DNA from: an uncultured Pelagibacteraceae bacterium
Lineage (GTDB): Bacteria > Pseudomonadota > Alphaproteobacteria > Pelagibacterales > Pelagibacteraceae
DNA: 64,000 bases
Assembly: GCA_902599495.1 (NCBI GenBank)
Contig: CACKFY010000004.1
Location: forward strand, 1 to 64,000
Reading direction: 5' to 3'
In this document: in pieces, positions 37,288 to 46,173 of the stretch
How the letters are laid out: each line of letters starts with the position of its first letter
Numbering within the stretch: the stretch's first letter is position 1
Notes under the pieces: model-generated
The model's input: the letters and a program-made list of their open reading frames with translations, nothing else
Database searches by the model: none
Told to the model about the DNA's origin: nothing
Position numbers and translations under genes: made by a program

Positions 37288-37334
37288 TTATCTCCCTCGT
37301 TAGTTTTGCGAATGGTTCTCAATTATCTGAGAAT

Positions 37335-37353
37335 GAGAATAATTATCATTATC
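37335..37353 (-). promoter_or_regulatory. Fur-type iron box upstream of fbpA
   Basis: The minus strand reads GATAATGATAATTATTCTC, which agrees with the classic Fur box GATAATGATAATCATTATC at 17 of 19 positions (counted by eye). It lies 48-66 bases before the fbpA start. Iron-responsive repression is inferred; the regulator gene is not in this window, and Alphaproteobacteria may use other iron regulators. Confidence 0.75.
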
Positions 37354-37392
37354 AATAATGTCGCACCTTCTACGGGAAAATGATTTAATTAA

Positions 37393-37551
37393 TTATTTTT
37401 TGATTAAAGTTTTCTTCTTGAACAGATAGTAGAAGTCTGACTGAAGGTTATTTTTAGGCTTGAGTAAACTAGTTTTTAGCTTACCGTACTTTAGCTCTTT
37501 GGCATTTTTTATTCTTGAAGCTAAGATTCTCATATGGATAGAATCTATCAT
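37393..37551 (-). CDS. Possible 52-residue basic protein upstream of fbpA
   Basis: In the 344-base gap between fbpA and the BASS transporter gene, the minus strand has an open frame from ATG 37551 to TAA 37393-37395 (MIDSIHMRILASRIKNAKEL... ending FKKKTLIKK). It is strongly basic and has no signal peptide or membrane span. No ribosome-binding site is visible and I do not recognise it. It may be a real small gene or a chance frame. The rest of the gap holds the Fur box and, at the other end, a Zur-type palindrome. Confidence 0.3.
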   Translation of the reverse strand: MIDSIHMRILASRIKNAKELKYGKLKTSLLKPKNNLQSDFYYLFKKKTLIKK

Positions 37552-37604
37552 AAGTTGAGCTAAGCACAACCAAAGATTGTTTCATTTTGGGCCCTTTTTA
37601 TATA

Positions 37605-37619
37605 TGTTATATTATAACG
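37605..37619. promoter_or_regulatory. Zur-type palindrome upstream of the BASS transporter gene
   Basis: GTTATATTATAAC (37606-37618) is a perfect 13-base palindrome identical to the core of both operators between znuC and znuA in this window. It resembles the known enterobacterial Zur core GTTATAATATAAC. It ends 13 bases before the GTG start of the BASS gene, where it could block transcription directly. Confidence 0.65.
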
Positions 37620-37631
37620 TCAGAGGAATAA

Positions 37632-38477
37632 GTGGAAATTGCAAAAAGTATAGCGCCGATATGTTTAGCAATAATTATGTTCGGTCTTGGACTAGGTTTA
37701 ACAGCTCAAGATTTTTTAAGGGTAGTAAAAAATCCTAAAGATTTTCTTATAGGCTTTTTATCACAAGTTATTCTTCTTCCTATAGTAGCTATTATCTTAA
37801 TAAGTTTAATTTCGTTACCTGTAGAAATTGCTATGGGTGTTATGGTTATTGCGGCGGCACCAGGTGGAGTAACTTCAAACATATTAACTAAATTTGCTGA
37901 TGGAGATGTTGCTTTATCAGTAACATTAACTGCTGTTGTAAGCTTACTAAGTATAATTATTGTCCCTTTGATAGTGTTTAATTCAGCTAATTATTTAGGT
38001 ATTGAAATAGTTAAAGAAATTTCAATGCTAAATATTGCGCTTAAAATGTTTTTTGTAGTAACCGTGCCAGTGCTTTTTGGAATGATTGTTAGAAGTTTAA
38101 TGACTGATTTTATAATATCTAAAACTTTATTAGTTCAAAGGCTATCAGTAATATTATTTTTAATTGTTTTTATATCTATTTGGGTTGAGGAATGGGACAG
38201 AATAATTAGTTTTATTACAAGAGCAGGTTTAATAGCTTTTATCCTTAACATTACAATGATTTTTGCCGGTTATTACATTGCTAAATTTTTGGCATCAGGA
38301 ATTGCTCAGAGAAAGTGTATTTCTCTTGAATGCGGTTTACAAAATGGAACGTTAGCTGTGTTTGTAGCAACTCAATTATTTGATGATATTGTGTTTATGG
38401 TTCCTACAGCTGCATATGCATTAATTATGTTTGTAACATCGATTGTTTTTGTTTTGGTTGTAAGAAAAATTAACTAA
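37632..38477 (+). CDS. BASS-family (bile acid:sodium symporter-like) transporter
   Basis: A 281-residue inner-membrane transporter of the BASS/COG0385 superfamily, with eight to ten membrane spans. Family features include FGLGLGLTAQDFLRVVKNPK near the N terminus, the conserved AAPGGVTSNILTKFADGDVA (about 75-95), and CGLQNGTLAVFVATQLF in the C-terminal half. Known members carry bile acids, pantoate, pyruvate or other organic anions with sodium; the substrate here is unknown. The GTG start is supported by AGAGGA about five bases upstream. An exact copy of the znu operator core lies in its promoter, suggesting zinc control. It overlaps the HD gene tail to tail by four bases. Confidence 0.85.
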   Translation: MEIAKSIAPICLAIIMFGLGLGLTAQDFLRVVKNPKDFLIGFLSQVILLPIVAIILISLISLPVEIAMGVMVIAAAPGGVTSNILTKFADGDVALSVTLTAVVSLLSIIIVPLIVFNSANYLGIEIVKEISMLNIALKMFFVVTVPVLFGMIVRSLMTDFIISKTLLVQRLSVILFLIVFISIWVEEWDRIISFITRAGLIAFILNITMIFAGYYIAKFLASGIAQRKCISLECGLQNGTLAVFVATQLFDDIVFMVPTAAYALIMFVTSIVFVLVVRKIN

Positions 38478-39028
38478 TTTGTATAAGGTTTTCTACTAAA
38501 GATTTTTCTCACGTACGGTTCAAAGTCTTTTAAGGATAAAGATTTGTAATTAGGGTCAAAAGATTTTTGATCCCAATTTTCGCAAAATTTTACAGTATCA
38601 TTAAAATATTTATGATCTTTGTATTTATCTCTAGCATTTTTATTTCCACCTAAATGATGTGCGTAATAATACATTTGAAAAATTCCATGCTTTTCGACAA
38701 TCCAATGAGTTTTTTCACTTACGTATGGTTTTAAAACAGCTGCTGCATATTCAGAATGATTTAATGGTGCTAATTCATCACCAATATCGTGTAATAAAGC
38801 TGCTACTATCATTTCATCGCTTGCGCCATCTTTTAAAGCCCTTGTTGCAGCTTGTAATGAATGTTCTAAACGAGATACTTGATATCCTTCTAAGGTTTCA
38901 GTTAAGGTGCTCATAAAGTTTAATATTCTATCAGCTGTTCCTTTAACAAACTTTTGTTCATGTTTATCTAAAAGAAGATAATCCTCTTTTGTCCCTTTCT
39001 TCATTTCTTTAAAACTTACTTTACTCAT
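38474..39028 (-). CDS. HD-domain oxygenase-like protein of the PhnZ/TmpB type
   Basis: A 184-residue cytoplasmic HD-superfamily protein. It resembles the mixed-valent di-iron oxygenase PhnZ: RLEHSLQAATRALKDGASDE (His56), AALLHDIG (His80-Asp81), NHSEY (His91), EKHGIF (His114) and NWDQK (Asp153) match the expected metal ligands. From memory of PhnZ, the residues that contact the phosphonate (His62, Lys108, Arg158) align with Asp84, Gln118 and Glu150 here, so the substrate may not be a phosphonate. Its start overlaps the stop of the adjacent dioxygenase gene as ATGA, indicating joint action. A simple phosphohydrolase role cannot be excluded. Confidence 0.75.
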   Translation of the reverse strand: MSKVSFKEMKKGTKEDYLLLDKHEQKFVKGTADRILNFMSTLTETLEGYQVSRLEHSLQAATRALKDGASDEMIVAALLHDIGDELAPLNHSEYAAAVLKPYVSEKTHWIVEKHGIFQMYYYAHHLGGNKNARDKYKDHKYFNDTVKFCENWDQKSFDPNYKSLSLKDFEPYVRKIFSRKPYTN

Positions 39029-40119
39029 GAGTTAGCCTCTAATTTTTTCATTTTACTCTCAACGGAGTCGTGCTCAATGTAACAACCTTGTAAATGTCTT
39101 TCTCCAACGCTCATATCGTATTTTGTCCGACCATGAAGAGTTCTGTAGTTATCCATTAGCATCATATCCCCTGGAGACAATTTAAATTCAATCATGAACT
39201 TTTTTGAATTACATAGTTTTATAAATAAAGATCTTGCTTTATAAAATTGATCTAACTTATCTTTTTTAAATACCTGAACATAATCCAGTCTTGGACTTAA
39301 TCTCACCCTTTTAATTGTATTATCACTATCCAATTGTATCGTTTCACCCCAATTTTCAAGGTAAGTATTTTTATCTTGATAAGAGAATCTTATTTTAACA
39401 CTACTTAATATTTTAAAATATTTTGGATATTTTTTTCTCATGTATTCTACAACAGCAAATCCATCTGTAAGAGTTGAATGACCTCCTATACTGTCATTTT
39501 TTAAACAATGAAGAATTTGTATACCGGGTATAGGTCTTCTGTATGGGTTATCGGTATGAGCTGCTAAAGCATGTGATGTGTAGGCTAAATCGCTCGCTTT
39601 CCTTACGGATCTTACATTAAACAACTTACCGAAATTAGTTTTTCTCAATATTCCTAAAGAATTTGCGAAATTTAAAATATAGTTTTTTTTAACTGGTGTT
39701 TTTTTTATGATGGAAAAGCCGAATTTATAAAAATCTTTAATAACTTTTAATCCCCTTTTTGAATTAAATAAATTTTTTTCATATTTGTATATTGGCTTAT
39801 ATTTTATATTTGAGTTCCAAAGTTTTAAGTTTTTTTGAAAAGAATTTTTATTAATTTCGTTAATTAAATCCTTAATAAAATAATCTGATTGCACACCATC
39901 ACTAAACTTGATATTCAAAAATTTATTTTTTATTAGTGCGCGCTCAATTTTGATATTTTTCTTTATTTTTGATGGGTCATATAACCTTTGCCCATTGTTT
40001 TTATCAAAGTATTTAGCGTCAGTTACTCTTTCTCTTAACCACATAGGGTGGATAACCATATTGTTATTATATCCTGAAACCAGTATTTTTTTCTTATTTT
40101 TAGCGACTCCTAATTTCAT
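39025..40119 (-). CDS. Gamma-butyrobetaine hydroxylase-like Fe(II)/2-oxoglutarate dioxygenase
   Basis: A TauD/GBBH-fold oxygenase of 364 residues. The Fe(II) triad appears as H188-T-D190 in LAAHTDNPYRRPIPG and H329 in NYRTLHGRTKYD, with an Arg (R341 in GERHLQGCY) for 2-oxoglutarate. The N-terminal domain has HPMWLRERVTDAKYFDKNNG; this is the GBBH N-terminal domain but without the cysteines that bind zinc in true GBBH. Such enzymes hydroxylate trimethylammonium compounds, including gamma-butyrobetaine and, for TmpA, 2-trimethylaminoethylphosphonate. The context of quaternary-amine importer genes upstream and a PhnZ-like partner downstream supports an osmolyte-type substrate. Confidence 0.8.
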   Translation of the reverse strand: MKLGVAKNKKKILVSGYNNNMVIHPMWLRERVTDAKYFDKNNGQRLYDPSKIKKNIKIERALIKNKFLNIKFSDGVQSDYFIKDLINEINKNSFQKNLKLWNSNIKYKPIYKYEKNLFNSKRGLKVIKDFYKFGFSIIKKTPVKKNYILNFANSLGILRKTNFGKLFNVRSVRKASDLAYTSHALAAHTDNPYRRPIPGIQILHCLKNDSIGGHSTLTDGFAVVEYMRKKYPKYFKILSSVKIRFSYQDKNTYLENWGETIQLDSDNTIKRVRLSPRLDYVQVFKKDKLDQFYKARSLFIKLCNSKKFMIEFKLSPGDMMLMDNYRTLHGRTKYDMSVGERHLQGCYIEHDSVESKMKKLEANS

Positions 40120-43108: not shown

Positions 43109-43522
43109 TCAGCTTCTTTTACAGCTTGTACACAAGCCGTAAAATTCTAAATTATATTTTTTATAGGTCATACCTGTTTTGTCATGAAAATTTTTTAAAT
43201 ATTTAGAAAGTTTTTGGTTACTAATTTCAGTTACCTTTTCGCATGTTTCACAAATTGAGAAAGCTGTAGCTTTAGAAATTTCACAATTTGAATTTTTACA
43301 AGCCACAAAAGCATTTCTGCTTTCTACTTTATGAATTTTTCCTAATTTAATTAATTTTTCTAAGGCTCTATAAACTTGTAAGGGGGCTTTAATGCCTTTT
43401 TTTTGAACATTAAATAAAATTGAATAAGCTTTTAAAGGTTCTTTTGCTTTTTCAATAATATCTAGAATTATTTTTTGATTTTTAGAAAGAGTTTGTATTT
43501 GAGCCATATTATATTTTACCAA
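43109..43522 (-). CDS. zur: Fur-family transcriptional regulator, probably the zinc sensor Zur
   Basis: A 137-residue metal-dependent repressor. The winged helix occupies the first 80 residues (KAYSILFNVQKKGIKAPLQV, then VYRALEKLIKLGKIHKVES), and the structural zinc site is seen as CETCEKV and the terminal CTSCKRS. The position after znuB in a znuC-znuB-zur order, and palindromes of Zur type upstream of znuC, identify it as Zur rather than an iron sensor. It would repress its own operon when zinc is plentiful. Confidence 0.88.
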   Translation of the reverse strand: MVKYNMAQIQTLSKNQKIILDIIEKAKEPLKAYSILFNVQKKGIKAPLQVYRALEKLIKLGKIHKVESRNAFVACKNSNCEISKATAFSICETCEKVTEISNQKLSKYLKNFHDKTGMTYKKYNLEFYGLCTSCKRS

Positions 43523-43529
43523 TTAACTT

Positions 43530-44333
43530 TCATTTTTTCAATTCAGAAAATTTTTTTGTTTTAATAAGTGAAATTAAAAATAGTAGTAATGCTGCAGTTA
43601 TAATTGAAGGACCAGATGCTGTATTAAATTCTAAAGAAGAAAACAATCCTATTAAAATTGATAATAATCCTCCTATTGTGGATAAAAATGCCATTTGTAT
43701 TGGATTATTTGACATATTTCTTGCTAGCGCAGCTGGAATAATTAGCATTCCAGTTATTAAAAGAAGTCCAACTATTTTTATTGAAACAGCAATTATAGCT
43801 GCCATCAAAATTGTAAATATCGCATTGTATCTGTCTGGTTTCATTCCTTCTGCTTTAGCTAAATCGTAATTTATTGTTGAAGCAAACAAAGGCTTCCAAA
43901 TAATTTTTAAAATTATTAAGATAAATACACCGCCGCCCCAAATTAATAACAAATCGCTTTGACTTACAGCTAGTATATCGCCGAACAGCAATCCCATTAC
44001 ATCAAATCTTATAGTTGTTAAAAATCCAATAATTACAAGCCCTATTGCTAGAGATGAATGAGCTAATAAACCTAGTAAAGCATCGTTAGGAAGATTTGTT
44101 TTACTTTGTAATTGAAGAAGGAAAATAGCTATAACCGCTGATGTTAAAAAAACTGATAAAGCAATATTAAGTTCAAATACCAAAGCCATAGTTACACCTA
44201 ATAAAGCTGAATGTGCAAGTGTGCCTGCAAAAAAAGACAATCTTCTCCAAATTACAAAGCATCCTATTGGACCTGTTATTAAAGCTATTCCAATTCCTGC
44301 AAGTAAAGCTCTTATAAAAAAATCATCAAGCAT
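43530..44333 (-). CDS. znuB: High-affinity zinc ABC transporter, permease
   Basis: A 267-residue membrane subunit with eight or so spans, of the ABC-3 (ZnuB/MntB) metal family. Visible landmarks: GIALITGPIGCFVIWRRLSF near the N terminus, LAHSALLGVTMAL, and the C-terminal VKIVGLLLITGMLIIPAALA. Its start is one base from znuC's stop and its end 7 bases from zur, so the three form an operon. Confidence 0.94.
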   Translation of the reverse strand: MLDDFFIRALLAGIGIALITGPIGCFVIWRRLSFFAGTLAHSALLGVTMALVFELNIALSVFLTSAVIAIFLLQLQSKTNLPNDALLGLLAHSSLAIGLVIIGFLTTIRFDVMGLLFGDILAVSQSDLLLIWGGGVFILIILKIIWKPLFASTINYDLAKAEGMKPDRYNAIFTILMAAIIAVSIKIVGLLLITGMLIIPAALARNMSNNPIQMAFLSTIGGLLSILIGLFSSLEFNTASGPSIITAALLLFLISLIKTKKFSELKK

Positions 44334-44334
44334 A

Positions 44335-45081
44335 TTATTTTTGATCTATTGTTCCGTCTTGAGAGTGAGTATGGTCATGTTTATGCTCGTAAAGGGATAG
44401 GATATTTGAAGCTCTATCACCGAATAATTCTTTATATTTGCTATCTTTAACGACATGATGTGGTGTTCCAGAGCAACAGACATGTCCATTTAAGCATAAT
44501 ACATAATCAGTAGCGGACATCACTACATGCAAATCATGTGAAATTAAAAGTATTCCACATTTCATTTTTTCTGAAATTTTTTTGATTAATTCATATAAGG
44601 CAATTTCACCTTTAAAATCAACACCCTGCACAGGTTCATCAAGCACTAATAATTCTGGTTGCTTAGAAATAGCCCTTGCTATCAAAACTCTTTGAAACTC
44701 TCCTCCAGATAAATTACTTAAACTTTTATCCTTTAAATGTTCAACGCCTGTTAAATTTAAAGCTATATTAATTTGATCCTGGGTTAATTCCTCTGTCAAA
44801 GTCATAAAATCCGAAACTCTAATTGGTAAGGTCCAATCTATTAAAATTTTTTGAGGCACGTATCCAATTTTATTAGTGTATGTTTTAACTTTGCCATCTA
44901 TTTTTTTATATATTCCCAGTGCAATTTTTGCTGTTGTTGATTTTCCAGAACCATTTGGACCTATCAACGTAACTATTTCACCTTGTTTAACTTCAAACGA
45001 AACACCTTTAACTAAAGATTTATCGTTTATTGAAATACCAACATTTTCAACCTTGAGTAGTACCTTATTTTTGTTTTCCAT
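44335..45081 (-). CDS. znuC: High-affinity zinc ABC transporter, ATP-binding protein
   Basis: A 248-residue ABC ATPase: Walker A LIGPNGSGKSTTAKI, signature LSGGEFQRVLIARAI, Walker B LLVLDEPVQGVDFK and switch His in LISHDLHVVM. The C-terminal tail is His-rich (EHKHDHTHSQDGT), as in many zinc-family ATPases. The gene is divergent from znuA, and two Zur-type operators lie in the 57-base gap, so both directions are probably repressed together. Confidence 0.95.
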   Translation of the reverse strand: MENKNKVLLKVENVGISINDKSLVKGVSFEVKQGEIVTLIGPNGSGKSTTAKIALGIYKKIDGKVKTYTNKIGYVPQKILIDWTLPIRVSDFMTLTEELTQDQINIALNLTGVEHLKDKSLSNLSGGEFQRVLIARAISKQPELLVLDEPVQGVDFKGEIALYELIKKISEKMKCGILLISHDLHVVMSATDYVLCLNGHVCCSGTPHHVVKDSKYKELFGDRASNILSLYEHKHDHTHSQDGTIDQK

Positions 45082-45104: not shown

Positions 45105-45136
45105 TGTTATATTATAACAAATGTTATATTATAACA
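45105..45136. promoter_or_regulatory. Tandem Zur-type operators between znuC and znuA
   Basis: Two exact copies of the perfect palindrome TGTTATATTATAACA occupy 45105-45119 and 45122-45136, with two bases between them. The core agrees with the enterobacterial Zur operator. The second copy ends only two bases before the znuA ATG; the first starts 24 bases before the znuC ATG. Zinc-dependent repression of both genes is inferred. Confidence 0.85.
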
Positions 45137-45138
45137 CC

Positions 45139-46173
45139 ATGATAAACAAATTATTAAAGCTTACAATTACTTTATTTATTACATTTACTGTAAATTTTTC
45201 AGCTAATGCAGATATTAAAGTTGTAGCTTCTATAAAACCTATACACTCATTAGCAAGTTATTTAATGGATGGTGTAGGTAAACCAGATTTAATTGTAGAT
45301 GGGTATAATTCTCCTCATGGATTTGCATTAAAACCATCGCACGCTAAAATGTTACAAAATGCTGACCTAGTTTTTTGGGTTGGTGAAGACTTAGAAACTT
45401 TTTTAGAAAAACCATTAAAATCAGTAGCAAAAAAAGCTGAAAAAATAGAATTAATGGAAATTAAAGGATTAAAAAAATTAGAATTTAGAGAAAGAAACAT
45501 ATTCGAAGGCCATGATGACCATGGACATGACGATCACAAAGAACACGGTCATAAAGAAGCTAAACACGATGATCATAAAGAACACGGTCATAAAGAAGCT
45601 AAACATGACGATCACAAAGAACACGGTCATAAAGAGGATAAACACGACGATCATCACGAGCATGCTCACGGTGAACATGATCCACATATTTGGCTTGATC
45701 CAATGAACGCGAAAGTAATTTTAAGTGAAATGGCAGAGCATCTAATTGAAAACGATCAAGAAAATGCATCAAAATATAAAGCTAATTTAAAAAAAGCACA
45801 CAAAGAGTTAGACAAACTAACAAAAAAAGTTAAATCTGATTTAAATAAAGACTTTAAATCAATTGTTTTTCATGACGCCTACCAGTATTTCGAAAAAAGA
45901 TTTGATGTTAATGTTTTAGGAGCTTTTACAGTAAATACAGATGTATTACCTGGTGCAGAACAATTATCTGAGATAAGAGAAGTAATTGAACATGAAAAAG
46001 TAAGTTGTGTATTTTCTGAACCTCAATTTAACCCAGATATAATCAAAGCAGTAGCAAAAGATACAAATATTAAGACTGGAGTTATAGATCCTTTAGGAGC
46101 AACTCTAAATCCAGGAAAATCATTATATTTTGATTTAATTAGAAATATGTCTAAATCTTTCAAAGGTTGTTAA
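45139..46173 (+). CDS. znuA: High-affinity zinc ABC transporter, periplasmic binding protein
   Basis: Periplasmic zinc receptor. From ATG 45139 the product has 344 residues: signal peptide MINKLLKLTITLFITFTVNF ending SANA, then IKPIHSLA with the first zinc His, a His/Asp/Glu/Lys-rich loop at about 125-180, DPHIWLDPMNA, VFHDAYQYFEKRF with another His, and VIDPLGA. The longer frame from 45121 starts inside the operator and is rejected. No Shine-Dalgarno precedes the ATG; the Zur operators occupy the leader position, so the message is probably leaderless or nearly so. Confidence 0.94.
   Translation: MINKLLKLTITLFITFTVNFSANADIKVVASIKPIHSLASYLMDGVGKPDLIVDGYNSPHGFALKPSHAKMLQNADLVFWVGEDLETFLEKPLKSVAKKAEKIELMEIKGLKKLEFRERNIFEGHDDHGHDDHKEHGHKEAKHDDHKEHGHKEAKHDDHKEHGHKEDKHDDHHEHAHGEHDPHIWLDPMNAKVILSEMAEHLIENDQENASKYKANLKKAHKELDKLTKKVKSDLNKDFKSIVFHDAYQYFEKRFDVNVLGAFTVNTDVLPGAEQLSEIREVIEHEKVSCVFSEPQFNPDIIKAVAKDTNIKTGVIDPLGATLNPGKSLYFDLIRNMSKSFKGC
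45529..45645 (+). repeat. Three tandem 39-bp repeats within znuA
   Basis: Three in-frame 39-base units at 45529-45567, 45568-45606 and 45607-45645, nearly identical, encode a 13-residue unit of the form DDHKEHGHKEAKH. They make up most of the histidine-rich zinc-binding loop and are followed by a partial fourth unit. Copy number is likely variable between strains. Confidence 0.9.

Follow-up and report, generated by a model that had tools for sequence, protein, structure and literature searches.

Why should the gene of an organic anion carrier be preceded by the same DNA switch as the genes for zinc uptake? In the stretch of 64,000 nucleotides from a Pelagibacteraceae (SAR11) genome analysed here, called the window in what follows, a BASS-family Na+/organic anion symporter of 281 amino acids is encoded at 37632..38477 on the plus strand, with a GTG start. 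A 13-base palindrome stands just before it, and two further copies stand between znuC and znuA. We predict, with a probability of roughly 0.8, that in this SAR11 subclade the transporter gene is a direct target of the regulator Zur, repressed in the presence of zinc and expressed together with ZnuABC when zinc is low.

SAR11 bacteria are among the most abundant in the sea, and PMC4771312 describes their trace-metal uptake as strongly reduced, high-affinity zinc uptake being the exception.

Results

Copies of the palindrome

The palindrome GTTATATTATAAC is a perfect 6-1-6 inverted repeat. The initial annotation had placed it at three positions of the window, the first of them 13 bases before the GTG of the transporter, and an exact search agrees on both counts: the copies are at 37606..37618, 45106..45118 and 45123..45135, the gap to position 37632 is 13 nucleotides, and the next best match in the window has two mismatches. 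A search of the whole assembly (911 kb, about 78% complete) returns the same three exact copies. The relaxed, arm-based dyad GTTAYNNNRTAAC occurs four times in this genome, the fourth time within a coding frame. Since shuffled sequences yield about 8 matches to the 13-mer at two mismatches or fewer, a match carries information only if it is exact or nearly so.

One way to read the copy before the transporter is as a promoter element, or as a coincidence in A+T-rich DNA, unrelated to Zur. Its centre, TATATTATA, does resemble a -10 box, and the loose pattern GTTA-N5-TAAC has about 7 to 19 matches per genome. The distribution of the exact 13-mer tells against this reading. In a survey of the family, 168 of 247 genomes contain it, and a reversed control pattern is found in far fewer. 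Nearly all of the exact copies whose loci were inspected are at znuC/znuA; the rest precede a BASS gene or a gene of the SaoD/DsrE type (NF040913), or are isolated chance copies, for example one close to infA and one within a ccmF-like gene. With exact copies almost confined to these three targets, the motif is no general promoter element, and the picture that the annotation had itself offered as contrary to its claim, a palindrome found generally in front of unrelated genes, is not the one that emerges. The SaoD/DsrE-type gene has exact operators just upstream in six genomes of other SAR11 genera, singly or, in two of them, in tandem, and can be considered a second recurrent predicted Zur target.

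The pattern itself has been published for Zur sites. At least one GTTA-N5-TAAC, mostly in the form GTTATATTATAAC, is present in each of the 61 distinct SAR11 znuC-znuA intergenic regions whose sequences were fetched, and 21 of the 61 have two, usually spaced by 17 bp. The same pattern is conserved in the Zur sites of many proteobacteria and is the core used for Caulobacter (PMC4176598); in Paracoccus, the zur/znuA promoter contains related sites to which Zur binds in a zinc-dependent manner (PMC5387054); and the core GTTATANTATAAC occurs in Zur papers on other bacteria. Judged by its sequence, the 13-mer is a Zur-type operator.

The zur-znu cluster

The zinc genes of the window are znuC, for the ATPase (44335..45081, minus strand), znuB, for the permease (43530..44333, minus strand), then zur (43109..43507, minus strand), and, on the plus strand, znuA (45139..46173), whose zinc-binding product has a His-rich insert and scores above the cutoff of NF007091. 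The two predicted operators between znuC and znuA, at 45106..45118 and 45123..45135, are exact copies 17 bp apart. The second ends 3 nucleotides before the apparent ATG of znuA, a proximity that suggests either that the transcript is leaderless or that the start was called wrongly. As the initial annotation observed, zur lies between the two operator regions.

The product of zur is a Fur-family protein (PF01475). Its best named model is the Zur equivalog NF008646, at 70 bits, below the cutoff of 167; its nearest solved structures are the Fur-family regulator 7dh7 and E. coli Zur, 4mtd. We assign it to Zur because of synteny and the PDB matches, and because no named NCBIfam model scores better than NF008646, even if the score is under the cutoff. 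Aligned to E. coli Zur, it has the two CxxC pairs of the structural zinc site, CETC and CTSC. A lysine is aligned at His96 of E. coli Zur, which we take to be a ligand of the sensor zinc, and an additional cysteine is found nearby.

A conserved Fur-family gene next to znuA has been described in SAR11 (PMC4771312), and the cluster reported there is the one seen in the window; the zinc passages of that paper mention neither operators nor targets other than the ABC transporter.

Conservation before the transporter gene

We fetched 79 named BASS loci, every one of which belongs to the Pelagibacteraceae. Fourteen genomes, including that of the window, have a common arrangement as far as their contigs reach: a divergent futA, the BASS gene, then proW, proX, zur and znu. 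The dyad is found upstream of the BASS gene in 12 of these 14 genomes, 13 to 33 nucleotides before the start, although this does not amount to 12 independent events, as members of the clade are related; the genomes compared are mostly incomplete assemblies from single cells. In all 12, the arms GTTA and TAAC are unchanged, while the centre and positions 5 and 9 vary, often by symmetric changes, as in GTTATATTATAAC, GTTACATAGTAAC and GTTACAAAGTAAC. Several members have changed symmetrically to GTTAC...GTAAC, without any TATA box. Such forms are not -10 boxes, so what is kept is the dyad and not the TATA box, contrary to what a promoter element or a coincidence would lead one to expect.

In the remaining two genomes, the sisters AG-343-F07 and AG-343-D23, the site is degenerate (GTTGCATCAAAAC and GTTGCATCTAAAA) and the operator has been lost. 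One of the pair shows zur and part of znuB; znuA was found in neither of these two incomplete assemblies. A loss of Zur as the cause of the loss of the site in AG-343-F07 is unsupported: zur retains an intact C-terminal half in this genome, beside an apparently chimeric join.

In the window, the operator at 37606..37618 lies between two other elements. Downstream, before the start codon, is a ribosome-binding-site-like sequence, AGAGGAAT (37622..37629, plus strand). Upstream is a conserved block, ACAACC.AAGATTGTTTCATTTTGGGCC (37566..37593, plus strand), with a core, AAGATTGTTTCATTTTGGG, that is invariant in 14 genomes, the block being more conserved than the centre of the operator; it is possibly a part of a promoter, such as the -35 region, or a hairpin. 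A terminator scan upstream of the operator returned none, though a hairpin followed by a run of T looked terminator-like by eye; a promoter scan gave no good plus-strand promoter ending at the operator, and an Rfam search of the region gave nothing credible.

The neighbourhood has some further features. A small open reading frame of 46 amino acids, divergent from the BASS gene (37393..37533, minus strand), encodes a basic product conserved in the clade; homologues, diverged in sequence, also adjoin BASS genes at two other loci. Between the BASS gene and proW, the window has HD-domain and TmpA-like genes, of the 2-trimethylaminoethylphosphonate oxidation type (38474..40119, minus strand), which among the clade members compared occur there in this genome only.

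Sites outside the clade

Nearly all other SAR11 BASS orthologues are without the operator; for this reason it is, on the sequences compared, a clade-level addition to the Zur regulon rather than something that goes with the transporter in general. At three loci of other SAR11 genomes, the BASS gene directly follows znuA in tail-to-tail orientation, and a Zur-type site is missing.

We scanned 169 genomes of the genus for the dyad in front of a BASS start and obtained 14 matches. In thirteen of them, the sequence upstream and at the start is that of the clade; the fourteenth is AG-919-I13, in which the BASS gene is in the other common arrangement, preceded by an HTH gene and followed by an AMP-ligase gene. 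The stop codon of the HTH gene is about 20 nucleotides from the BASS gene in relatives of AG-919-I13 and about 60 in AG-919-I13 itself; this extension of roughly 40 bp holds an exact operator, GTTATAATATAAC, 11 nucleotides before the ATG. Apart from this dyad, the genome of AG-919-I13 contains only two, which stand in tandem at znu. In a tree of BASS proteins, AG-919-I13 is far from the clade of the window, and to fit the tree the state of the site must have changed three times or more, for example by two gains and one loss. It thus appears that AG-919-I13, a single genome, gained its exact operator independently.

In another genus, genome G390 has GTTATATAGTAAC about 24 nucleotides before the ATG of its BASS gene, and another dyad at znuC/znuA. 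We rejected it as a firm third case: outside the clade, loose dyads precede the BASS gene in 2 of 92 windows of sequence, which is within the range of composition-matched arms.

That such single matches are not rare compared with other arms is a last point for coincidence. Set against the confinement of the exact copies, the persistence of the arms when the central TATA is gone and the exact copy gained independently in AG-919-I13, it leaves a promoter element or chance as an improbable account of the site.

It is also conceivable that another dimeric regulator, either of the two remaining Fur-family proteins or some other factor, uses the dyad before the transporter, its likeness to the znu sites coming from shared or converged motifs. 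The genome encodes three Fur-family proteins, and a Fur-box-like element of the divergent futA is nearby (37329..37356), invariant except for one base in two genomes. Furthermore, the symmetric form GTTAC...GTAAC does not occur in any of the 61 znuC-znuA regions, so that some of the sites before BASS genes may be of low strength or answer to a different regulator. However, the BASS and znu sites are identical in both the window genome and AG-919-I13, and the futA element, GAGAATGAGAATAATTATCATTATC, is clearly unlike the Zur-type site. We consider a different regulator to be as improbable as a chance site.

Control by Zur is thus the reading that we retain for the clade. The gene has an operator that matches the core GTTA-N5-TAAC in its promoter region, and zur is in the same genome. 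Membership in the Zur regulon, as the initial annotation proposed it, is partly supported, by the arms kept in 12 of 14 genomes, the independent gain and the specificity of the motif; conservation of the site before orthologues, by which it was to be judged, extends to the clade and to AG-919-I13, and fails for most other SAR11 orthologues.

The transporter

The annotation had called the protein BASS-like, and rightly so: it scores 106 bits against PF01758 and 177 against TIGR00841, under the 326-bit cutoff of the latter, and has both the SBF domain and the fold of the family (TC 2.A.28). The best matches in a fold search are all ASBT/NTCP, with a TM score of about 0.74, for a model of moderate confidence (pLDDT 64) that adds little beyond the sequence.

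The top fold match, ASBT_NM of Neisseria meningitidis, is also the closest by sequence, 28% identical to the protein. What we take to be its Na1 and Na2 ligands, Q77, S114, N115, S128, T132, E260 and Q264, correspond to Q45, S82, N83, S96, T100, E233 and Q237. Asn265 of ASBT_NM, which no longer binds pantoate when this residue is mutated, is conserved; Thr112 is replaced by valine, with which ASBT_NM still binds pantoate. The pantoate contacts of TM10, His294 and Asn295, are replaced by Met and Phe, according to a HMMER alignment extended by eye. The protein is far under the cutoff of the equivalog of PanS, the BASS-family protein of Salmonella (NF047939, 90 bits against 400), and is not assigned to it. 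Most genomes tested have panB and panC, so pantoate import is not essential, and we rejected a pantoate auxotrophy of the PanS type as the reason for the transporter. Most likely, the protein belongs to the sodium-coupled carriers of small hydroxy- or keto-acids.

Discussion

Since the transporter gene has the DNA switch of the zinc-uptake genes, the cell probably makes the transporter when zinc runs out. With sufficient zinc, a dimer of zinc-loaded Zur would sit on GTTA-N5-TAAC directly upstream of the ribosome-binding site and repress the gene, as at znuC/znuA. The operator being placed between the conserved block and the ribosome-binding site, the bound repressor would cover the -10 and start region of the promoter. 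When zinc is scarce, Zur would leave the DNA and the transporter would be made alongside ZnuABC, probably importing a small organic acid, hydroxy- or keto-, together with Na+.

What such an import would do is a separate matter. Control by Zur may be real while the protein exports a zinc ligand, or supplies organic acids in general, outside zinc acquisition: this concerns function only and is compatible with repression by Zur. The BASS fold carries organic anions, the sodium ligands and Asn265 are conserved while the pantoate contacts His294 and Asn295 are not, and the presence of panB and panC removes the need for pantoate import. Characterised BASS members, on the other hand, are mainly Na+-coupled importers (PMC10645422, and general knowledge). 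We regard such a role as quite possible, if somewhat less than even in its chances. The roles offered by the initial annotation, import of a zinc-complexing metabolite, export of a chelate or replacement of a zinc-dependent pathway, find no direct support in the sequences. More speculative, and to our mind rather doubtful, is the conjecture that SAR11 lineages put a BASS transporter under Zur more than once for the import of either an organic ligand or chelate that binds zinc, or an organic acid with a sparing effect on a zinc enzyme. If this were true, the transporter would be an arm of ocean zinc acquisition or sparing that is neither ABC nor ZIP.

An extra predicted Zur target in a streamlined genome, conserved in a clade and apparently gained a second time elsewhere, points to a specific metabolite whose import matters at low zinc. 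It opens a way to test how bacteria of the open ocean cover their need for zinc or economise on it.

A literature search, with subscription journals largely outside it, found no link between Zur and BASS transporters and no published Zur regulon that includes one. The regulons known in Alphaproteobacteria, those of Caulobacter crescentus (PMC4176598), Paracoccus denitrificans (PMC5387054) and Sinorhizobium fredii (PMC7029138), likewise have dyads before znu genes and are small. The SAR11 sites have the GTTA-N5-TAAC core in common with the first, and paired sites at the znuA promoter with the second. In contrast to these regulons, the extra SAR11 target is, by its family, not a metal transporter; and, compared with ASBT_NM and PanS, the transporter of the window differs in being under predicted zinc control.
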